Part shown: piece by piece, positions 193 to 10,795 of the stretch
Layout: the number at the start of each line of letters is the position of its first letter
How positions within the stretch are numbered: the first letter of the stretch is position 1
NCBI GenBank assembly: GCA_025774865.1
Contig: JALGZO010000224.1
Location: forward strand, 1 to 10,921
Origin: a bacterium
Lineage (GTDB): Bacteria; ARS69
Direction: 5' to 3'
DNA length: 10,921 nt
The notes under the pieces: generated by a model
What the model was told of the DNA's origin: nothing
What the model saw: only the letters and a program-made list of their open reading frames with translations
The model's database searches: none
Position numbers and translations under genes: made by a program

Positions 193-750
193 TCAGCGCG
201 ACGGCGGATCGATCGCAGCGCGGAAGGTGCCTGTCACGTTCACCGAAGGACCATCGTGGAACTCGCTGCCGATCACGGCGTCGATCGAGAATTGAATCTC
301 ACCCCCACTCCCGCACTGCAGTTTCTGGAACGTGATGGAACCGCTCGAGCGCGCGTCCTGGGATGACAGCTCGTTCGCCGGATCGTCCGACAAGTCGGCG
401 ACAAAGAGGTCCACGTCCTTCGGGAGGTCAAACACGAAACCGTTCGGAAACGCGAGCGGTTGCCCAATCGTCACATCGGCGACGACGGCACGGAGGTGCC
501 ATCTCGGATCTCCCGGGCCTGGTCCGCCGAACAGCACCTGAACGCTCGGCGTGACAACCAGGCCCTCCTCCCACGGTCCGCACCACACATAGAGAAACGC
601 GTCGCTCGAAAACGAGATCTCGGACCGATCGGCGCGCGTGAATACGAGACTGTTTTGGGTGGCGCCCGGTCCTGACGGACTGCTCTCACTGCATGAAAGC
701 GAGAGAGAGGCGGCGGTGGCCAGCGCAAGAACTCCTGCGGCCCTGTTCAT
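193..750 (-). CDS. Predicted lipoprotein of unknown function
   Basis: This gene encodes 185 residues and starts at ATG 750-748, with a G-rich stretch (GGGGGG) four bases upstream that may serve as Shine-Dalgarno. The N-terminus is a short signal sequence: Arg3, then a hydrophobic run to LSLSC with the candidate lipidated Cys20. The lipobox is imperfect because Ser, not Leu, sits at -3. A Ser/Gly/Pro-rich linker (21-33) follows, as is typical of exported lipoproteins. The rest is rich in alternating hydrophobic residues, suggesting a beta-sandwich. It has two further cysteines (Cys57 and Cys146) that could form a disulfide, and ends in a VTGTF strand. I do not recognise the family and assign no function. 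It stands alone: the next material upstream is phage debris. Coding is supported by the signal sequence and by a plausible, non-repetitive composition in this frame. Confidence 0.7.
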   Translation of the reverse strand: MNRAAGVLALATAASLSLSCSESSPSGPGATQNSLVFTRADRSEISFSSDAFLYVWCGPWEEGLVVTPSVQVLFGGPGPGDPRWHLRAVVADVTIGQPLAFPNGFVFDLPKDVDLFVADLSDDPANELSSQDARSSGSITFQKLQCGSGGEIQFSIDAVIGSEFHDGPSVNVTGTFRAAIDPPSR

Positions 751-1244
751 GGTACCCCCCGATGTGGGTTGGTGCGCCGCACGGCCCGATACCGGTGAAC
801 CGGTGTTTCAGGGCAAGGATAGCGGCTTCCACGCATAACGGCTCTGCCGCTCTGCCGAGGCGAGTGAGGAGTATCAGGTCTCAGCGTTAGCGTCTGTAGA
901 GCGTCGAACAGGTCGTCGTGCTCGGCCTGGGGGAAGAGGATCAACTCGTCGGTCAGCGCCTGCCAATCGTCGACGTTCCGCTGCAGGTGCTTCGCCGGAA
1001 ACAGGATCTGGCCGTTCTCGAAGAACGGCTGAAGCCAGTACGCCCGCGACACCTTGTCCTTGGTCCTATCCACCCGGCGCACCGGCATGTACCGTTCGGC
1101 GTCTTGCGGCACGTACTCCTGCGACGCCACTGTCTCGATGAGCACCTCGAGCGGCCGGTATCGCTCGTTCATCGCACGCAGGTGATCGAGAGGAAGAAGT
1201 CGCGATCGTCGCGAAAGACGCGCGGCTCGAGCAGACCCACTCAC
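747..1244 (-). pseudogene. C-terminal remnant of a phage terminase large subunit
   Basis: The recognisable part is residues 25-123 of this frame (about 1172-876). It shows the nuclease-domain end of terminase large subunits (Terminase_6C/RNase H-like fold): a strand RPLEVLIETVASQ, then DRTKDKVSRAYWLQPFFENGQILFP, and finally the typical FPQAEHDDLFDAL, where the HDD-x-x-DA motif carries a conserved metal-binding aspartate. Just upstream, the related piece LLEPRVFRDDRDFFL lies in another frame (1234-1190), so there is a frameshift near 1190. The ATPase domain is entirely absent. The open frame begins at a GTG overlapping the rpoD stop, and the tail after residue 123 has no terminase character, so this is a decayed fragment, not a working gene. 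In a live phage this protein would cut and package DNA. Nothing else phage-like is seen in the window. Confidence 0.7.
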
Positions 1245-2977
1245 GGGGCATCCACGTAGCCCTGAAGCTTCCTCGCGCGCGAGGGGTGCCGGAGCTTCCC
1301 GAGCGCCTTCGACTCGATCTGTCGAATCCGCTCGCGGGTCACGTTGAAGATCGCCCCCACCTCCTCGAGCGTGCGAGGACAGCCGTCTCCGAGCCCGAAA
1401 CGAAGCCGGATCACCTTTTCCTCGCGCCGGGTCAAGGTGGAGAGGACATTGGACATCTGCTCCTGGAGCATCGCGAACGCGGCCGAGTGCGCCGGGTTGA
1501 TCGCGGAGGTGTCCTCGATGAGGTCGCCGAGGTTGGAGTCTTCAGCTTCGCCGATCGGCCGATCGAGCGAGGTGGGCTCCTGGGCGGCCTTCAGGACCGC
1601 CTTCACTTTCTCCACCGGCACGCCGAGCTTCTTCGCCACCTCCTCCGGGAGCGGCTCGCGGCCGTACTCCTGACCCAGGCGCCGGCTGGCCCGCACGACC
1701 TTGTTGATCGCCTCGATCATGTGGACGGGAACGCGAATGGTTCGCGCCTGGTCAGCGATCGCCCGGGTGATCGCCTGGCGAATCCACCAGGTGGCGTACG
1801 TCGAGAACTTGTAGCCCCTCTTGTAGTCGAACTTGACGACGGCACGCATCAGGCCGGAGTTTCCCTCCTGGATGAGATCGAGAAACTCCAGACCGCGGTT
1901 CGTGTACCGCTTCGCGATCGAGATGACGAGACGCACGTTGGCTTCGATCATCTCGCTCTTGGCCTGCTCGGCGATCTTCTCGCCCGCGTGGATCGACTCG
2001 CAGAGATCCGCGAGCTCGCTCGAGCTGCACTGCGCTTCCTGCTCGATTCGGCGGACCTTGCGCCGCACGTTCTTGATCTGCTTGGAGTACTCCTCGATGT
2101 CCTCTTTCGAGAGACGCCCCCGGCGACGCCCGGACCTGAGCTCGTTCCCCTTCGCCAGAAGGTTGATCTCCTCAGCAGTGAGTCCGGTCGCCTCCTCGAC
2201 CTCGAGGACCTCGCCGTCCGCCTCCTGAACGCGACCGTGGAACTCCTTGAGTCGCTCGATCAGCTTCTCCCCGAGCTTCGCGTGAAGCTTCAGCTCGATC
2301 AGCTCTTCGTTGACGCGGTTGCGCAGAGTCGACCGCTTCTTGTCGTAGTCACGGCGTTGCTTCTCCGTCCACGACTCGCGCGGGGGCGCCTTCGCCAGCT
2401 TCTCGAGCTCGTTGTGGGAGCGAACGATCCTCCGGACCCGCTGGAGGACGGCAGTCCGCTCCGCTTTCCCCGGCGCGTGAGAGGTCGCGAATCCTCCCGG
2501 GTCGACCCGGACGAGCTCCTCCAGGTTCATTTCTTCCTTTTCCACGCGCTGGGCCATGTTCGCGAGCTCCTTGACCGAACTCGCGCTCCGGAAGACGGTC
2601 TGAAGGACCATCTCCTGGCCCTCCTCGATCCGCTTGGCGACCCTGATCTCGCCTTTCCGGTTGAGAAGCGGCACGCGCCCCATCTCGCGCAGGTACATGC
2701 GGACCGGGTCGTCGAACCGGACCGGCTGAGAGGGCAGGATGGACTCGGCGCGCTCCTTCTCCGACTTCTTCCGCTTGACGCGGGCCCGTCCCTCCTCCAC
2801 CGAGTCGACGACCTCCACCTTGATCTTCCCGAGGGAGGCGTAGATCTCGTCCATCTCCTTGAGGCTCGCGTCTTCGTCGAGGTAGTCGTTGATCTGGTCG
2901 TAGGTGAGGAAACCCTGTTGCGCACCGACCTTCTTCAGCGACTCCAGAACTTTCGTGTGGGACTCCCTGGCCAGCAA
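1241..2977 (-). CDS. rpoD: RNA polymerase primary sigma factor RpoD (sigma-70)
   Basis: This is the housekeeping sigma factor that directs RNA polymerase to -10/-35 promoters. Its 578 residues show the whole group 1 architecture. Region 1.1 spans about 9-58 and region 1.2 about 88-122 ([17 protein letters not shown]). A basic and acidic non-conserved region follows (about 125-335). Region 2 spans 343-413, with the core-binding and -10-melting stretch [18 protein letters not shown]. Region 3 covers about 420-497. Region 4 covers about 510-568, with helix-turn-helix [20 protein letters not shown] and the C-terminal [10 protein letters not shown]. The start is TTG at 2977-2975, chosen because GGAGG lies eight bases before it. 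Position 380 reads Val where many RpoD proteins have Asp (RAVVKFDY rather than AVDKF). Unusually, no dnaG or rpsU precedes it. A terminase fragment begins right at its stop codon, but the natural C-terminus is intact. Confidence 0.97.
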
Positions 2978-3390: not shown

Positions 3391-3970
3391 TCGTCCCTAC
3401 ACCCATATCTGGACTCACCCATGCCTGGTATCGGCCTCGTGACTGCCTGTGTCTTGCGCGCAGAGGTCGGGCGGTTCGACCGCTTCCGAAACGGAAAGCA
3501 ACTCGCTCGCTTCTGCGGATTGAGTCCACGAAACGTATCGAGCGGGATCAAACAGGCCGACGCCGGTCTTATTAGAGCGGCCAGCCCACTTCTTCGGAGC
3601 ACGCTGATCGAAGCATCACATCGGTTGGTCCGCCTCCAACCGAGGTGGCGAGCAATGCGAGATCGTTTTCCTCGAAGCAGGCAAGCCGGTGCCGGTTGCG
3701 ATCGCAGCTGTGGCGAATCGCTGGGTACGTTGGCTCTTCCATCAGCTCAAAGGAATCCAGTGCCCGGCTTGAACGACTTACGAGACCGCTGACCTCTCGG
3801 CAGCAGTGTGCTCGGAATACTTCTGGGCTGGAAACGCTCGTTCTCAGATCGGGCAGCTGCGCCGACTCGAACCACCCACTTGGGCAGACGGCCAAGAGCC
3901 GAAACGCTCGGATAGAAGAATGGGGATTCAGCGGGACGTGTGCTTGACTGGCGACGGGTCTTCATAGAAG
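3385..3970 (+). mobile_element. Remnant of an IS110-family insertion sequence
   Basis: The core of this remnant is the broken transposase at 3400-3772. Downstream, about 200 bases lack a gene and end near CTTCATAGAAG (3960-3970). From memory this resembles the non-coding right ends of IS110-type elements, but that is an inference. A 10-base direct repeat GAAACGCTCG occurs at 3831-3840 and 3901-3910. IS110 elements lack long terminal inverted repeats, so the borders given are estimates. The N-terminal RuvC-like DEDD half of the transposase and the left end are missing. Confidence 0.5.
3400..3772 (+). pseudogene. Truncated, frameshifted IS110/IS116/IS902 transposase (C-terminal domain)
   Basis: The frame that has ATG at 3421 gives PGIGLVTACVLRAEVG, then FRNGKQLARFCGLSPR and LLRSTLIEASHRLVR. 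This is the Transposase_20 domain of IS110-family recombinases, with its helix-hairpin-helix and serine-bearing loop (SSGIKQADAGL in place of the common SSGGK/R form). After AMRDRF the reading breaks. In the +1 frame the normal family ending continues as LEAGKPVPVAIAAVANRW and finishes with CPA and TGA at 3770-3772. Removing one base at about 3670-3671 restores a continuous protein. Family resemblance extends in frame slightly upstream of the ATG (LDSPMPGIG), so that ATG is not a true start. The N-terminal DEDD catalytic half is gone. The element is dead by both truncation and frameshift. Confidence 0.85.
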
Positions 3971-4074: not shown

Positions 4075-6027
4075 TCACCGGACGAAAACCACGCGGCGCA
4101 CTCCCTTCCCCGCAGCCGTCGTGACCCGTGCGAAGTAGACGCCGGCGGAGACCAGTCGGCCCTGGTCATCTCGACCGTCCCACGTGAGCGCGTGCGGCCC
4201 GGCTTCGAACCGGCCGTTCGCCAGCGAGCGGATCCGTCGCCCGCCGGCATCGTAGACGGCGCCGGTGACCGGACCGGCTGCCGGTAGCGAAAACGAGAGC
4301 GCCGCCTCCGCCCCCGCCCGAAGCGGGTTCGGACGGCTCGGCTCCAGACGGAAGTCGGACACCCCCGCGATCTCGGGCACTGAGGTTGCGCCCGGCCGGG
4401 GCGTGACGAGGTAGATCGCGGTCGATCCGTCCGTGAAGAAGACCTCGAGCACGCGGCCGTTGTCGTCGGTGATTCCCGCGCCGAACTGGACGAACGCGAC
4501 GACGCGCGGATCGGAGCCGTCTCCGGTGCTCGAGAAATCCAGGAGGTCGCCCTCGCGAAGGATTACTCTGTGTGCCCCATCCGGCTCCAGGACGAAGATG
4601 GCCTCGTCGTTCAACGGCCCGATCCCCGGTCCGGAGAACGTCGCCGAGTACCACAGGTGGCTCGTCGAGTCGAAGCCATTGAGAACGACGCTTGCGAAGG
4701 TCGCCCCGGAGATCGCCGGAACCGGGAGTCCTTCCCCCGCGACCAGGGTGATCGTACCCGGACGGTCCCACCAGATCCCGAGGTCCGGATCCAAGATCGA
4801 CCCGCTGTCCGTGAAACCCCAGAACGCGATCTCGTCCTGGTCGTTGATCACACCCCGGATGAAGTGCGAAAAGTGCACGCCCGCCGGGAAGCCGGGCGCC
4901 GGATCGCCGGGCGGGTTCCCGGGAAGCGGGCGGAAGCCTCTCACGAGAAACTCCGGTGATCCGTTCCGCGTGGTCCAGATGGAGCGCGCGCGCGTGAACT
5001 GCGCCGAGTGCAGTGCGGCCCCGAACAGGAGGGAGCCCTGCGCATTGATGTAGATCCCGATGTCGTCCTCCGGGTCTCCGAATGCCCGAAACCCGGTGCT
5101 CGAACCGAAGCGCACGTTGCCCGCACGGCCAGGCGCCTTGTCATCCTCGCGCACGAGCATCTGGAGACCGCTGGGGGTCTCCACCCAGATCGCCTCGTTG
5201 TCGTCGGTGGTGATCCCCGGCCCCTCCATCGTCCCCGCAAAGACGGCGGTCGTCTCGTTCGCATCCCAGACCGAGATGGGTCCCCGCTGCGAGGTGTCGT
5301 TCGCGAAGACGACACCCGCCGGCATCCCGGGAACCGGCTGGTCCTTCACCAGGATCGTCTCCCAGGTTCCTGTGCGGTTCCGCCAAAGCCCCTCGTTTTG
5401 GTAGCCGAGGCCGTTGCCGACCGTGAAGAACCCGTTCAGGAGGATCTCGTCGCCCCTGTGGACGGGATTGAAGTCGAAGATGCTCTCCCCCGCCGGCAGG
5501 TCCGGGAGCATGTCTCCTGTCAACAGAACCCGTTCCAGCGAGCCGAACCGCTCCGACCAGATGCCAGTCGCCGGGTTGTTGACCGGACCGATCGATCCGA
5601 AGATGGTCAGCCGGCCGTCGATGACGAACGGAGTGTGGCCGAACAGTCCCGGGAAGCCGGAGAAGATGTCCCCAGTTCCGGGCGCCGGATCCCCCACGAA
5701 CAGGAACAGGTCGAGCGAGGTTCCGTTGAACTTCCAAATGCCCCGGTCGGTGTCTTCAATCGTGCTGGGATCTCCATCGCCGAGGAACGCGTGAAACGCC
5801 ATGGTGCCTTCGCTCCCCACTGCGGGAGGAGCGGCGAGATTTCCGCCGAGTGGGGGTAGAGTGCCGAAGTGCTCGAACAAGAGTCCGGGCGCCGCTCCCG
5901 GCGCCGGATCGCCGCGGCGGGCCACGACGGTGAAATCGAACTCGAGACCCACCCCGCGGGCGGGAGTGACGGGAAGAAGGAACAGCGCGCCGCACCACAG
6001 GGCCATTAGATGACGAACAGTCCTCAT
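4075..6027 (-). CDS. Secreted NxxGxxA-type repeat protein with a FlgD-like C-terminal domain
   Basis: This gene encodes 650 residues starting at ATG 6027-6025, with GAGGAG (6040-6035) seven bases upstream. Residues 1-25 form a Sec signal peptide (RTVRH, hydrophobic core, cleavage near PARG). Residues about 34-545 contain eight degenerate repeats of 58-74 residues, beginning near 34, 108, 167, 225, 290, 360, 427 and 488. Each opens with a strand and a turn like VxxGDPAPG, then has xNDxxExAFxG and GIW segments. This matches the choice-of-anchor tandem repeat (NxxGxxA) proteins and suggests a propeller or solenoid. Residues about 575-650 are a FlgD_ig/T9SS sorting-like domain (VYDAGGRRIRSL, LTWDGRDDQG, SAGVYFARV), common at the ends of secreted proteins in FCB phyla. 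The protein is probably exported and displayed or released; its ligand is unknown. It is transcribed divergently from the sigma/CHAT operon, 237 bases away. Confidence 0.85.
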   Translation of the reverse strand: MRTVRHLMALWCGALFLLPVTPARGVGLEFDFTVVARRGDPAPGAAPGLLFEHFGTLPPLGGNLAAPPAVGSEGTMAFHAFLGDGDPSTIEDTDRGIWKFNGTSLDLFLFVGDPAPGTGDIFSGFPGLFGHTPFVIDGRLTIFGSIGPVNNPATGIWSERFGSLERVLLTGDMLPDLPAGESIFDFNPVHRGDEILLNGFFTVGNGLGYQNEGLWRNRTGTWETILVKDQPVPGMPAGVVFANDTSQRGPISVWDANETTAVFAGTMEGPGITTDDNEAIWVETPSGLQMLVREDDKAPGRAGNVRFGSSTGFRAFGDPEDDIGIYINAQGSLLFGAALHSAQFTRARSIWTTRNGSPEFLVRGFRPLPGNPPGDPAPGFPAGVHFSHFIRGVINDQDEIAFWGFTDSGSILDPDLGIWWDRPGTITLVAGEGLPVPAISGATFASVVLNGFDSTSHLWYSATFSGPGIGPLNDEAIFVLEPDGAHRVILREGDLLDFSSTGDGSDPRVVAFVQFGAGITDDNGRVLEVFFTDGSTAIYLVTPRPGATSVPEIAGVSDFRLEPSRPNPLRAGAEAALSFSLPAAGPVTGAVYDAGGRRIRSLANGRFEAGPHALTWDGRDDQGRLVSAGVYFARVTTAAGKGVRRVVFVR

Positions 6028-6077: not shown

Positions 6078-6106
6078 AATATGACGCGGACGACCGGTCC
6101 TGTCTC
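6078..6106 (-). promoter_or_regulatory. Weak candidate promoter for the secreted repeat protein
   Basis: On the minus strand GAGACA (6106-6101, four of six matches to the -35 consensus) is separated by exactly 17 bases from CATATT (6083-6078, four of six matches to -10). It lies 51 bases before the start codon. In GC-rich DNA such a match could be chance. Confidence 0.25.
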
Positions 6107-6229
6107 ACAGAGCCTGCCGCACGCACTTTCGTACATCTTTGGCACTGGCGACAGGTGCCGGCCGGGGTGACGTGCGTTCGCACACGGATGCAGCTTCTCG
6201 GCATGTCACTGGGGGCTGTGGATTCCGAC

Positions 6230-6264: not shown

Positions 6265-6891
6265 ATGCCGTCGATCCGTCCCCGCAAAAGGGCAAAGCAG
6301 CCTCGCGCTGCTCCGATCAGACTTGAGAAACTCTCGGACGCCGAGATCGTTGCCCTCTGCGCGGGCGGGGACGAGGCGGCCTGGCGGGCCTTGGTCCTCC
6401 GTTACCGCCGGCTGGTCTACACGATCCCCTATCGGATGGGTCTTGATCCGGACGACTCTGACGAGGTATCCCAGGTCGCTTGGGTGCGGCTGGCCCAGCG
6501 GATCGGGCGGATCCGGGAGCCCGCGCGGGTGCGGGCGTGGCTCGTCACCACCGCCCGCCGCGCGGCGCTCAACGTCGTCGGAAGAAGGCGCGATGCCGCA
6601 ACCGAGATGTCGGCCGAACTCACCGACCCTGCGGATCTGCCGTCCGAAGAGATCGAACGTCTCGAGCAGCAGCAGTTGGTGCGCATAGCCCTTGCGCAGC
6701 TCGACCGGCGCTGCCGAGACCTTCTGTCGCTACTCTACTATCCAGACGAGCGCTCAACCGAACCGGCCTCTTACGATGCCGTGGCGAAGAAGATGGGGAT
6801 CGCCCCTGGGTCCGTCGGCCCAACCCGGCTCCGGTGCCTGAAGAAACTTCTGGTGCAGTACCGGAAACTACAGAACAAACAGGTATCATAG
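6265..6891 (+). CDS. ECF-type RNA polymerase sigma factor
   Basis: This gene encodes 208 residues from ATG 6265; an in-frame extension up to 6139 reads as non-coding Arg/Ser-rich sequence, so I reject it. After a basic N-terminal tail (RPRKRAKQ), region 2 runs from about residue 28 to 110, with DEAAWRALVLRYRRLVYTIPYR (core binding) and DDSDEVSQVAWVRLAQRI (-10 recognition). Region 4 runs from about 142 to 203: ALAQLDRRCRDLLSLLYY, then helix-turn-helix YDAVAKKMGIAPGSVGPTR followed by RCLKKL. Regions 1 and 3 are absent, as expected for the group 4 (ECF) class, and the length is normal. It redirects RNA polymerase to a small regulon that cannot be read from this window. It is the first gene of an operon with a zinc-finger protein and a TPR-CHAT protease, which suggests its activity is held by the former and released by the latter. 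I do not assign an ECF subgroup. Confidence 0.9.
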   Translation: MPSIRPRKRAKQPRAAPIRLEKLSDAEIVALCAGGDEAAWRALVLRYRRLVYTIPYRMGLDPDDSDEVSQVAWVRLAQRIGRIREPARVRAWLVTTARRAALNVVGRRRDAATEMSAELTDPADLPSEEIERLEQQQLVRIALAQLDRRCRDLLSLLYYPDERSTEPASYDAVAKKMGIAPGSVGPTRLRCLKKLLVQYRKLQNKQVS

Positions 6892-6920
6892 CTTCGCCGA
6901 GGCGGGTCTGTGAGACGGTC

Positions 6921-6925
6921 GGAGG
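6921..6925 (+). promoter_or_regulatory. Shine-Dalgarno fixing the start of the zinc-finger gene
   Basis: GGAGG is followed by eight bases and ATG at 6934. The alternative GTG at 6910 lies before this site and has no such signal, so the ATG is preferred. Confidence 0.65.
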
Positions 6926-6933
6926 TGGCCAGC

Positions 6934-7548
6934 ATGCACCCTAGATTCGAAGACTGGATCGAGCTGATCGAAGGCTCGGTCGCCGGCGCGGCGCGCCACA
7001 GGCTCGAGGAGCACCTCGCCGAGTGTGACGAGTGCTGCAAGCGGGAACGTGAGATTCGCGACATGCTGGAGACAATGGTCGCAGACCGCTTGTTGGAGCC
7101 GTCACCCGCCGCGCTCTCATCTGTTTTCGAAGCGCTCCGACCGTCCGGCTTCAAGCTCACACTCCCAGGCTGGGCCCGCGGCCTACGCGAGCGGCTGGCT
7201 CGGCCCGCCTTCGATACGCTGGAGAATCGCCAAGAGGCGTTCGCGGGTGCGCGCTCCTCGTCCGTGGCCCGGCGGCTCCGATTCAACGAGGGGCGACTCG
7301 AGCTCGACATTCTCGTGGAGGCAGAAGGAGACCGGCGCCGCCTCACGGCCCAGCTCCTCTCGCTCGGCGAGGAGCCTCAACCCCTGGTCGGCGCCCGCTT
7401 CCTCGTTTCAGCGAGTGGGACGATCGAGGCCGACGGCGAGACCGACGCGCACGGCGGATTCCTGCGGGAAGTCGCGGCCCCCGGGGACATCGAGGTCCGG
7501 GTAGCGACCGAAGACGGACTCGTCGTTTTCACTATCCCGGACTGTTGA
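6934..7548 (+). CDS. Putative ZAS-type (zf-HC2) anti-sigma factor with a C-terminal beta domain
   Basis: This gene encodes 205 residues from ATG 6934. Residues 1-45 carry the zinc anti-sigma signature H-x3-C-x2-C (His27, Cys31, Cys34), with an upstream His (His2 or His22) as a possible fourth ligand and an extra Cys35. ZAS proteins bind and silence the ECF sigma encoded beside them. Residues about 50-110 are a flexible Arg/Ala/Ser-rich linker. Residues about 115-205 look like a beta sandwich: GRLELDILVE, then LVGARFLVSASGTIEADGETD and GGFLREVAAPGDIEVRV, close in form to carboxypeptidase-regulatory or peptidase-associated Ig-like domains. There is no transmembrane helix, unlike many ZAS anti-sigmas, so it acts in the cytosol. 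It lies 42 bases after the sigma gene and four bases before the CHAT gene. Silencing of the sigma factor is inferred from motif and position. Alternatively the protein could be mainly a protease substrate or adaptor. Confidence 0.75.
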   Translation: MHPRFEDWIELIEGSVAGAARHRLEEHLAECDECCKREREIRDMLETMVADRLLEPSPAALSSVFEALRPSGFKLTLPGWARGLRERLARPAFDTLENRQEAFAGARSSSVARRLRFNEGRLELDILVEAEGDRRRLTAQLLSLGEEPQPLVGARFLVSASGTIEADGETDAHGGFLREVAAPGDIEVRVATEDGLVVFTIPDC

Positions 7549-7552
7549 TCGA

Positions 7553-10417
7553 GTGGCTCTTGTCACCGAGGTCCTCAGGGCGCCCGACCTCGACGCCGTC
7601 CGCAGACTCGCAGCCGACCGGCCTATCGCCGATCTTCAGGCGATCTTCCCGTCGCTGAAGGACGAGGTCCAGCGAATGATGCGCACGGAACCGAAGCGTG
7701 CGCTCGACATCGGGGAGCGCGCCGTCGTCGTGGCGGAGATCGCGCGCGATCCCGAGCTCGAAGCGCGAGCCGCCTGGATGCGCGGTTACGGGCTGGTCGG
7801 CATCCTGCGAGCCCGGGAAGCCGCCGCAGACTACGAGCGCGCCGCCGCCATCTTTCGCGACCTGGGGAACAAGCTCGAAGAGGCCGAGGTCGCGATCGGC
7901 TGGGTCGGCGCCCTGATGTTCTTGGGCGATTACGAAAAGGCACTCGCTCTCGGGGAACGATCGCTACGCGTGCTCCGGCGGCGCGGGCGCGTCGCCGAGG
8001 CCGCGAAGCTCGACTTCAACCTCGGGAGCATCCACGATCGGATGAAAGGTCCCGTGGCCGCGAAGCGGCACTTCGACCGGGCCCTCAAGTCCGCAAAACA
8101 GCTCGGCGATCCGGTGATGATCCGCGTCATCCAAATGAACCGGGCACACGCGTTCAAGAGTCTCGGACGGTGGGAGCAGGCCGAGAGCCTCTACCACTGG
8201 GTCCGGAAGGCGGCGCATGAAGCGGGCGAGACGCGCTTGGTAGGTCTCGCCGAGGGCAACCTCGGTCACTTGGAGCTCTTGCGAGGGGAGTACGGGCGGG
8301 CTTTCAAGCGTCTGGAAGCGGCGCGAGCCCTGCAGCTCGAGGATCCCTACCTACTGACTTACACGCTCGGGGATCTCTCCCAGCTCTTCTTGGAAATGAA
8401 CAGCTTTCAGCGCGCGAACGCTCTCGGGCGCCAGGCACGGTGCGTCGCGCTTCGACACGGCATTCGGTTCGAAGTGGGGCGGGCCGCTACTTATCAGGCC
8501 ATCGCGTGTCTCGGCCTCGGCGAGATCACCCAGGCCTCCACGCATCTCGAGGACGCGACCCGCGCGTTTCAGCTGGAAGGTAACCCTCCCCCCAGATTCG
8601 TCGGCTCGCTCTTCTGGGCGGAGCTCGAGGCCCGCCGCGGTCGGCTCTCGTCGGCGGCGAGGCTTCTCGCGCGGGCGGCCGAGGTGTTCGCCAAGGAGAG
8701 GCTGCCGCTGTACGAGGCAACTGCGTGGGTGAATCGGGCGGCGATCGAGCTCCGGCGAGACCGCCGCGAGAGTGCCCGGACGGCGATCACCCGAGCTCGA
8801 CGCCTGATGCGGCGCGTGCGCTCGCCTTGGCTGCAGGCTCGCATCGACCACCTCGCCGGGCGGGTGGCGATGGACGAGCAGAAGATGGGAGTCGCCCTGA
8901 GGAGTTTTCGCAAGGCGGTGGAGCGCGTCGAGACGAGCCGGGGGCGCATCGGCATCGACGAGCTCTGCATCCACTTCGGCGCAAACAAGGCGCCGATCTA
9001 CACGGATCTGGTCGAGACGCTGCTGCGTCGCGGGGGGAAATCAGCCGTTGCCGATGCCTTCGAGGTGGTCGAGCGTTCGCGATCCCGCGCGCTCGTGGAT
9101 CTTCTCGCCGGCCACCTGACCGGCGCGCGCAACAAGGCGGACCCCGGAGTCGCGCGCCTCATGCGGCGGCTGGAGACGTTGCGGGCGGAACTGAACTCGC
9201 TGTCGGGTTTCAGCGCACGGTGGGACAAGGGTGGCAGCGACGAGTCGCGGCCCCGATGTTCGGCGGCCGAGGTAAGGAAGCGGGAGGAGGAATTCACCGA
9301 CGTCGTCCACCGGTTGCGTGCCAAGGACGCGCCGATCGGAGCCCTGACCGCGGGCGAGACCGCGACTCTGGCCGGGGTTCAGCGCGGGCTACCCGCAGGC
9401 ACAATCCTCGTCGAGTACTACGTTCATCCACGCGGATCGATGGCGTTCGTCGTGGCCCGGGATGGCGCCCGCCTCGTCGAGCTTCGGGCGGGGCACAAGG
9501 AGATCGTCGACAATATGTCGCGACTCCGCTTCCAGCTCGAAAAGTGGTTCTATGGAAAAGCGTATGTTGAAGCACGCCAGGCGGTGTTGCGCGACGCCCT
9601 TGAACACGAGCTGCGCCGGCTTGCAGAGCGGCTGTGGGACCCGCTCGGAGTGAGCGCCCGACGCGTCATCGTCGTTCCCCATGGACCGTTGCACTCGCTG
9701 CCGTTTCACGCCCTGACCGGAGCCGATGGGGTGCCGTTAGCGAAGCGGCACGTCTTCTCGTACCTACCGAGCGCGAGTGTCCGCCGTTACCTCGACGAAG
9801 ACCACACGGCGACGAACAGCCGCCGTTTTGCGGATGCGCGGATCTTGGCGGTCGGCGCGGGAGACGGTTCCATCCCGCAAGTAGATCAGGAGGTCAAACG
9901 CGTGCGCCGCCTCTTCCGCCGGGGTCGCACTCTTCGGGGCAGGCACGCGACCCGAGAGCGGTTCGTGCGGGAGGCCCGCAACGCGGACGTCGTACACGTC
10001 GCCACGCACGGCGTATTCCGCCAGGACGATCCGCACTTCTCCGCCCTGCAGCTCGCTGACGGCTGGATGAGCCTCTACGATCTCTACGGCCTGCACCTGA
10101 GAGCCGGACTCGTCTGCGTGAGCGCGTGCAACAGCGGCCGCAACTGGGTCGGCGCAGGAGACGAGATCGTCGGGCTCGTCAGGGGTTTCCTACACGCGGG
10201 GGCGCGGACTCTCGTTGTCAGCCTTTGGCCGGTGCAGGATGACTCGACGGTGCGCTTCATGGAGATCTTCTACCGGCACTTGCGCTCCCACCGACCGGCG
10301 GAAGAGGCTCTGACCGCTGCGATGTTGGAGCTCCGGGAGGAATTCCCTCATCCATATCATTGGGCGCCGTTCGTGCTCATCGGACGCGGCGGACCCATCA
10401 GCCACTCCTTAGAATAG
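7553..10417 (+). CDS. TPR-CHAT caspase-like cysteine protease
   Basis: This gene encodes 954 residues from GTG 7553, four bases after the preceding stop. It has no clear Shine-Dalgarno, so translation is probably coupled. Residues about 50-460 are helical tetratricopeptide repeats with ALALGERSL, AKRHFDRALKSAKQLG and similar pairs: a sensing or protein-binding solenoid. Residues about 470-600 hold the usual linker ahead of CHAT (VVERSRSRALVDLLA) and a charged helical stretch. The CHAT domain (about 615-948) has VPHGPLHSLPFHAL, the catalytic His819 in VATHG, the catalytic Cys859 in VSACNSG, and GLVRGFLHAGARTLVVSLWPV. The clan CD protease dyad is therefore intact. CHAT proteases are caspase/separase relatives that cleave partners after activation, for example Csx29 or gasdermin-linked proteases. 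No gasdermin is present, so the adjacent zinc-finger protein is the obvious candidate substrate. There is no signal peptide or membrane segment. Confidence 0.9.
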   Translation: MALVTEVLRAPDLDAVRRLAADRPIADLQAIFPSLKDEVQRMMRTEPKRALDIGERAVVVAEIARDPELEARAAWMRGYGLVGILRAREAAADYERAAAIFRDLGNKLEEAEVAIGWVGALMFLGDYEKALALGERSLRVLRRRGRVAEAAKLDFNLGSIHDRMKGPVAAKRHFDRALKSAKQLGDPVMIRVIQMNRAHAFKSLGRWEQAESLYHWVRKAAHEAGETRLVGLAEGNLGHLELLRGEYGRAFKRLEAARALQLEDPYLLTYTLGDLSQLFLEMNSFQRANALGRQARCVALRHGIRFEVGRAATYQAIACLGLGEITQASTHLEDATRAFQLEGNPPPRFVGSLFWAELEARRGRLSSAARLLARAAEVFAKERLPLYEATAWVNRAAIELRRDRRESARTAITRARRLMRRVRSPWLQARIDHLAGRVAMDEQKMGVALRSFRKAVERVETSRGRIGIDELCIHFGANKAPIYTDLVETLLRRGGKSAVADAFEVVERSRSRALVDLLAGHLTGARNKADPGVARLMRRLETLRAELNSLSGFSARWDKGGSDESRPRCSAAEVRKREEEFTDVVHRLRAKDAPIGALTAGETATLAGVQRGLPAGTILVEYYVHPRGSMAFVVARDGARLVELRAGHKEIVDNMSRLRFQLEKWFYGKAYVEARQAVLRDALEHELRRLAERLWDPLGVSARRVIVVPHGPLHSLPFHALTGADGVPLAKRHVFSYLPSASVRRYLDEDHTATNSRRFADARILAVGAGDGSIPQVDQEVKRVRRLFRRGRTLRGRHATRERFVREARNADVVHVATHGVFRQDDPHFSALQLADGWMSLYDLYGLHLRAGLVCVSACNSGRNWVGAGDEIVGLVRGFLHAGARTLVVSLWPVQDDSTVRFMEIFYRHLRSHRPAEEALTAAMLELREEFPHPYHWAPFVLIGRGGPISHSLE

Positions 10418-10464: not shown

Positions 10465-10795
10465 TGTCCGAACATCTCGATCGAGGCCGCCCATCTCACG
10501 CCGCCCGCCGATGGTAGTAGCTGAGCACGCCGCCGAGTCGCGCACTGACCTCGACTCTCCCCTCACGCTGCGGTGCCGCCCCGCTGACGATCTCGTTCCC
10601 GATGCCTTGGTGGCTTCGCTCGTCGTGGTAGTGTTCCACATACTCGGCGATCGCTCGATCGAGCGATTCCTGCCCCAGGAAGATTCCCCGATCGAGACAC
10701 TCGGATTTGATCGACCTCACGAACCGCTCCGCGTGCGCGTTCATGTTCGGCGCTCGGTACGCCGTCAGTAGGATTTCAACTCCTGTAGCGTCCAT
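10465..10795 (-). mobile_element. 3' part of an rve/DDE-type insertion sequence
   Basis: The element's transposase is cut at about 10795, so only its right part remains. TGTCCGAACATC at 10465-10476 lies 20 bases past the transposase stop and is a plausible right terminal repeat (TG-start). The matching left end is missing, so this border cannot be confirmed within the window. Confidence 0.45.
10496..10795 (-). pseudogene. Truncated integrase-core (rve_3) transposase
   Basis: The 100 residues show the C-terminal part of the integrase core of IS3/IS481-like transposases: ILLTAYRAPNMNAHAERFV, then SIKSECLDRGIFLG, YVEHYHDERSHQGIGNEI, and a tail GGVLSYYHRRAA before the stop. The catalytic glutamate of the DDE triad is likely the Glu in HAERF or SIKSEC; the two aspartates lie in the missing N-terminal half. 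Reading back in frame above 10795 gives no transposase-like sequence, so the ATG there is an accident of the break. The element is inactive. It sits between the CHAT operon and the next gene on the plus strand. Confidence 0.85.

Follow-up and report, generated by a model that had tools for sequence, protein, structure and literature searches.

In type III-E CRISPR systems, cleavage of Csx30 is thought to free a sigma factor (PMC10028731), and in Myxococcus xanthus inactivation of DdvA leads to activation of the extracytoplasmic function (ECF) sigma factor DdvS (PMC4374960). The ECF54 sigma factors are encoded near carboxypeptidase, subtilase and CHAT proteins, and proteolytic control without an anti-sigma factor has been proposed for them (Casas-Pastor et al. 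2021, via PMC8999054). A link between proteases and such sigma factors has therefore already been proposed; in the passages of PMC8999054 covered here the ECF54 factors are listed without an anti-sigma factor, and the mechanism is given as a proposal only. Here we describe a three-gene locus from a bacterium of the ARS69 lineage (assembly GCA_025774865.1, contig JALGZO010000224.1; the whole 10,921-nucleotide stretch analysed is referred to as the window) that encodes an ECF sigma factor, a probable anti-sigma factor, which we call the middle protein, and a TPR-CHAT protease. We put the probability at roughly one half that this cassette is a CRISPR-independent, protease-linked sigma switch in which the middle protein restrains the sigma factor and the CHAT protein inactivates the middle protein.

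The locus is similar to the Csx29/Csx30/CASP-sigma arrangement of type III-E systems in its TPR-CHAT fold and catalytic dyad, and in placing an ECF sigma factor and a soluble, here putative, inhibitor in one locus. It differs in having no Cas7-11, CRISPR or Csx30 and in the domains of the inhibitor, and its sensor must differ as well. In DdvS-DdvA, too, an ECF sigma factor with a sigma-dependent promoter is restrained by a CHAT-domain protein, but DdvA is one transmembrane protein, whereas the predicted inhibitor and the CHAT protein described here are two distinct soluble proteins. Like zinc-finger anti-sigma factors of the RsrA/ChrR kind, the middle protein is encoded beside an ECF sigma factor and has a short, soluble helical domain with HxxxCxxC at its N-terminus; unlike them, it has a conserved beta-sandwich and a protease-gene neighbour, and its finger is dispensable in relatives. 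As in the reviewed description of ECF54, the sigma factor is encoded with a CHAT protein and, in most relatives, with a subtilase, and in some relatives the beta domain of the middle protein weakly resembles a 'carboxypeptidase' domain; a Nonomuraea cassette comes from Actinobacteria, the phylum of the ECF54 model species. In contrast to that description, which has no anti-sigma factor, the middle protein bears an anti-sigma-like zinc finger in the window and in several phyla. At the window itself the CHAT gene is present, while the subtilase slot holds an insertion sequence (IS) remnant, soon after which the contig ends (at 10921).

A conserved, CRISPR-independent unit

The sigma, middle and CHAT genes form a conserved unit that is independent of CRISPR. 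An earlier note on this DNA, made without database searches, had placed them on one strand with gaps of 42 (sigma-middle) and 4 (middle-CHAT) bases; their coordinates and order are as it gave them, and the conservation of the neighbourhood, which it proposed to check, was confirmed. Since the three-gene arrangement recurs both in the same genome, as a complete paralogue on contig C451 and the truncated beginning of a third cassette on contig C537, and in other phyla, it is not a product of chance. The cassette is also present in the related genomes G001, G002 and G004. A genome-collection scan that used sigma patterns alone returned 25 loci, 22 of which were not part of the query; a sigma alignment including two remote members was dropped as the query because it was too diverse. 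Among these independent loci, from Burkholderiales, Chloroflexi and Krumholzibacteriota, the middle gene lies downstream of the sigma gene in 21 of 22, and the CHAT gene adjoins the middle gene in 19 of the 20 where the contig extends far enough. At locus L069 the CHAT gene is on the opposite strand. Actinobacteria and other groups also carry the cassette, with the order subtilase-sigma-beta protein-TPR-CHAT in Nonomuraea. One cassette (L074) is that of Rubrivivax rivuli, which is in culture. When 386 genomes were searched with a profile of the middle protein, nine matches fell outside the window's family, and sigma, middle and CHAT genes stood together in six of them.

Gene trees of the sigma, middle and CHAT genes agree with one another, each of them grouping the C451 paralogue with G002 and not with the window; we therefore conclude that the genes of the cassette are inherited together. 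The middle and CHAT genes frequently share a 4-base overlap, and a secreted subtilase gene after the CHAT gene is the fourth gene in most loci, including the paralogue in the same genome. At L103 (2856-15418), two full cassettes of sigma, middle, CHAT and subtilase genes stand in tandem in one genome. Remote proteins with a zinc finger and a beta domain are encoded at L108 (6742-7440) and L109 (7024-7599), where no sigma or CHAT gene was recognised nearby. A similarity cluster of 111 open reading frames was rejected as a gene family, as it consisted of antisense frames of GC-rich genes.

Sigma factor, middle protein and TPR-CHAT protease

The first gene encodes a sigma factor, as the earlier note had predicted, with matches to Sigma70_r2 (E = 5e-12; Pfam) and to the ECF model TIGR02937 (E = 9e-23; NCBIfam). 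The protein has regions 2 and 4 only, as required for an ECF54-type cassette, and region 4 carries the family motif GS[IV]GPTRxRCL. Membrane helices were found by hydropathy in none of the three proteins.

The third protein belongs with the CHAT proteases: Pfam places a CHAT domain with its catalytic His and Cys (E = 1.8e-59) alongside TPRs. The two residues that the earlier note had named as intact, His819 and Cys859, align with the Csx29 catalytic pair and are invariant in a 20-row alignment, and their surroundings are also invariant over very distant members. A structural model (predicted local distance difference test, pLDDT, 84.5) comprises a long TPR superhelix and the CHAT region, and its best fold matches in the PDB, obtained by VIA-align, were Csx29 (Z 31) and separases (Z 28), with DdvA lower down (Z 21-22). 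By sequence, the best PDB match of the CHAT domain was DdvA (2e-12), which keeps both catalytic residues and whose entry was deposited as a transmembrane anti-sigma factor. Asp896 is likewise invariant in the CHAT alignment; DdvA retains it, and Csx29 does not. By parallel with separase, and as a lead only, it may be an Arg-binding S1 residue. The curated Csx29 model scored 37.8 bits against a cut-off of 300, so that by this model the protein is not a Csx29. The absence of CRISPR and gRAMP suggested earlier also held, with no CRISPR-array-like repeats in the window and no gRAMP/Cas7-11 or other RAMP-family match in the genome (92.65% complete).

The second gene had been read as encoding a zinc-finger (ZAS) inhibitor. 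What stands of this is the look of a soluble anti-sigma factor and the HxxxCxxC ligand pattern (H27, C31 and C34) in the N-terminal helical domain; the finger itself scores weakly (zf-HC2 E = 0.009, 16.5 bits versus a Pfam cut-off of 22.2; RsrA-type anti-sigma model, 2e-4) and is not the core of the protein. Because the score is below the curated cut-off, we refer to a probable anti-sigma factor and do not file the protein in the zinc-finger family, although the middle proteins of the relatives L062 and L102 pass the zf-HC2 cut-off. We dropped the zinc finger as the core of the middle protein, since it is lost in several lineages and the beta domain is universal. Its presence and absence require at least three changes on the CHAT tree, and a near relative (L059, 1467-2093) is without any zinc ligands with the rest kept.

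An AlphaFold model of the middle protein (mean pLDDT 88.8) has helices at residues 5-50 and 58-68 and a strand at 86-94, followed by a beta-sandwich of the macroglobulin/Ig kind (structure comparison, Z 9.5). The structure searches gave generic beta-sandwich matches only and barely covered the N-terminal helices. The universal part of the protein is confined to its C-terminal part, namely the beta domain and one arginine: Arg107 is the sole residue invariant among all 38 aligned middle proteins, and it lies in a low-confidence loop (residues 101-110, mean pLDDT 64). CarboxypepD_reg matches, all under the Pfam cut-off, were found in L103, L105 and L083, and none for the middle protein of the window. 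As the beta domain of relatives weakly matches CarboxypepD_reg, the 'carboxypeptidase' listed for ECF54 in the reviewed account is probably this beta domain and not a protease. The zinc-finger branch, the gene order and the DdvA precedent together make it probable that the middle protein is the anti-sigma factor of the neighbouring sigma factor.

Promoter motif and predicted regulon

Although a de novo promoter search of the sigma upstream regions yielded nothing convincing above shuffles, the upstream regions of a secreted gene conserved beside Burkholderiales cassettes share the motif GTATC-N17-CTCTGTG. The encoded protein (L066, 8176-8718; L067, 11162-11725; L062, 6739-7308; and others) has about 180 amino acids, no Pfam family and the sequence VGAVxLDNIFVPDGAxC, and is found beside cassettes in Burkholderiales and Caldilineaceae. 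A relaxed core, GTATC-N18/19-TCTGT, is present between the sigma and middle genes at 19 of 26 loci and follows the CHAT gene at 14 of 19, compared with 0.0 in shuffles. The only strict copy in the window, where 0.01 copies are expected by dinucleotide shuffle, overlaps the sigma stop codon and lies 21 bases before the ATG of the middle gene. The whole genome has six copies, half of them between the sigma and middle genes of the three cassettes, and all four copies in G002 fall within 8 kb at the cassette (chance probability ~1.5e-8). G003, which has no match to the middle-protein profile, has no copies. Counts in other genomes range over 0-28, so the pattern is not diagnostic by itself.

The motif also precedes the subtilase gene and genes for exported proteins of the DUF7453, CHRD, beta-propeller and PQQ kinds, several of which have a C-terminal FlgD_ig domain; in Burkholderiales it precedes lipoprotein genes, and in G001 a perfect site stands at a DUF7453 gene. 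Another copy in G001, within or next to the gene for a C25 (gingipain-family) peptidase (L131, 3-1487, minus strand), is probably there by chance. Based on the location of the motif in cassettes and before genes for exported proteins, the sigma factor most likely governs an exported regulon as well as the inhibitor-protease unit encoded with it. The earlier note had the freed sigma factor start a stress or defence regulon. The sigma factor does appear to control the cassette itself, but its predicted targets are exported and nothing that was found points to immunity. The alternative that the note allowed, a regulatory rather than an immune system, fares better, since exported targets fit a surface or secretion response better than immunity.

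The features of the locus are collected in Table 1. Elsewhere in the window, a gene for the housekeeping sigma factor RpoD (1241-2977, minus strand; 612 bits by NCBIfam) is 3.3 kb away from the ECF cassette and adjoins a fragment similar to the nuclease of a terminase large subunit (747-1244, minus strand; Terminase_6C, 2.6e-5), perhaps a prophage remnant. A fragment of an IS110-family transposase is at 3421-3792 (plus strand; Transposase_20, 4e-20).

Table 1. Coordinates of genes, domains, residues and sites at the locus, as window positions.
Feature	Position	Strand	Basis or remark
ECF sigma factor gene	6265-6891	+	ATG start; 208 amino acids
Middle gene, soluble probable anti-sigma factor	6934-7548	+	ATG start; 204 amino acids
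TPR-CHAT protease gene	7553-10417	+	GTG start; 954 amino acids; soluble
Predicted sigma-dependent promoter, GTATC-N19-TCTGTG	6883-6912	+	Between sigma and middle genes
Anti-sigma-like zinc-finger helices, residues 1-50, H27-x3-C31-x2-C34	6934-7083	+	Domain search, model, ligand pattern
Arg107 codon of middle protein, candidate cleavage site	7252-7254	+	Alignment and model; cleavage inferred
Ig/macroglobulin-like beta-sandwich, middle protein residues 112-204	7267-7545	+	CarboxypepD_reg-like in relatives
CHAT domain, residues 686-945	9608-10387	+	Pfam
Catalytic His819 codon, CHAT protein	10007-10009	+	Alignment
Catalytic Cys859 codon, CHAT protein	10127-10129	+	Alignment
Divergent secreted DUF7453 protein, C-terminal FlgD_ig domain, possible sigma target	4075-6027	-	
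Weak promoter-like site, GTACG-N17-CTCTGTG	6106-6134	-	2 mismatches; 78 bases before DUF7453 ATG
IS integrase remnant (rve_3)	10496-10795	-	Occupies slot of relatives' subtilase gene

A predicted sigma switch and its alternatives

In the switch that we propose, the N-terminal anti-sigma helices of the middle protein would keep the sigma factor in an inactive, cytosolic state, and the TPR arm of the TPR-CHAT protein would sense a signal. The TPR-CHAT protein would then inactivate the middle protein, most likely by a cut at Arg107 in the flexible loop that joins the anti-sigma part to the beta-sandwich. The released sigma factor would recognise GTATC-N18/19-TCTGT and transcribe the middle-CHAT unit, as feedback, together with the subtilase gene and a small set of genes for exported proteins. 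Cleavage of the middle protein by CHAT is plausible because the dyad is invariant and Csx29-Csx30 offers a precedent (PMC10028731); Arg107 as the site of the cut is a guess based on the alignment.

Several observations weigh against this proposal. The middle proteins of Burkholderiales and Actinobacteria are without the zinc finger, so that sigma binding there is putative, and the motif was not found in the L102-L106 lineages or at the Nonomuraea locus L083. The same arginine is present in the two remote middle-like proteins that have no CHAT gene nearby. Craspase cleavage sites are not conserved (PMC11106740), and an invariant arginine therefore need not mark a cleavage site.

The switch could also work without proteolysis, the TPR-CHAT protein binding the beta domain as a scaffold and altering release of the sigma factor by partner exchange while the dyad serves another substrate. 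DdvA, the closest CHAT protein to have been characterised, is an anti-sigma factor in its own right, fused to a CHAT domain, and no cleavage is reported for it in the passages covered; translational coupling of the middle and CHAT genes is also common. However, the invariance of His819, Cys859 and their surroundings over very distant members argues for kept catalysis, and we regard a purely non-proteolytic switch as unlikely. Rather less probable is that CHAT degrades or trims the sigma factor itself, with the middle protein as an adaptor or chaperone. This would follow the published ECF54 proposal (PMC8999054, as reviewed) and would suit the many middle proteins from which the zinc finger is missing, but that proposal, as reviewed, is silent on the finger, which the same protein bears in several phyla, and the gene that stays beside CHAT is the middle gene. 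An immune device, in which phage sensing leads to a defence regulon or cell death as in a CRISPR-free Craspase, is improbable, since, despite the Csx29-like fold of the CHAT protein and a weak match of its CHAT domain to BovA in PADLOC, the predicted targets are exported (subtilase, DUF7453, CHRD, beta-propellers, lipoproteins), none of the genes conserved beside the cassette is defence-like and no RAMP gene was found in the genome.

As far as the literature covered here shows, three things are probably new: the reading of the ECF54 'carboxypeptidase' as a probable anti-sigma factor in which the zinc finger is optional, the predicted promoter with its regulon, and the invariant arginine of the middle protein. 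The locus thereby points to the missing partner of ECF54 factors, to a testable promoter and to the residues Arg107, Cys859 and H27/C31/C34. If the CHAT protein does cleave the middle protein, caspase-like control of transcription would be a common bacterial circuit and not a CRISPR oddity, and the CRISPR version would be derived. More tentatively, such cassettes may form a widespread, CRISPR-independent class in which cytosolic anti-sigma factors are cut by a separase-like CHAT protease at the invariant arginine, releasing an ECF sigma factor for an exported regulon via GTATC-N18/19-TCTGT. Were that so, Csx29-Csx30-CASP-sigma would represent an older and common circuit that CRISPR has captured.

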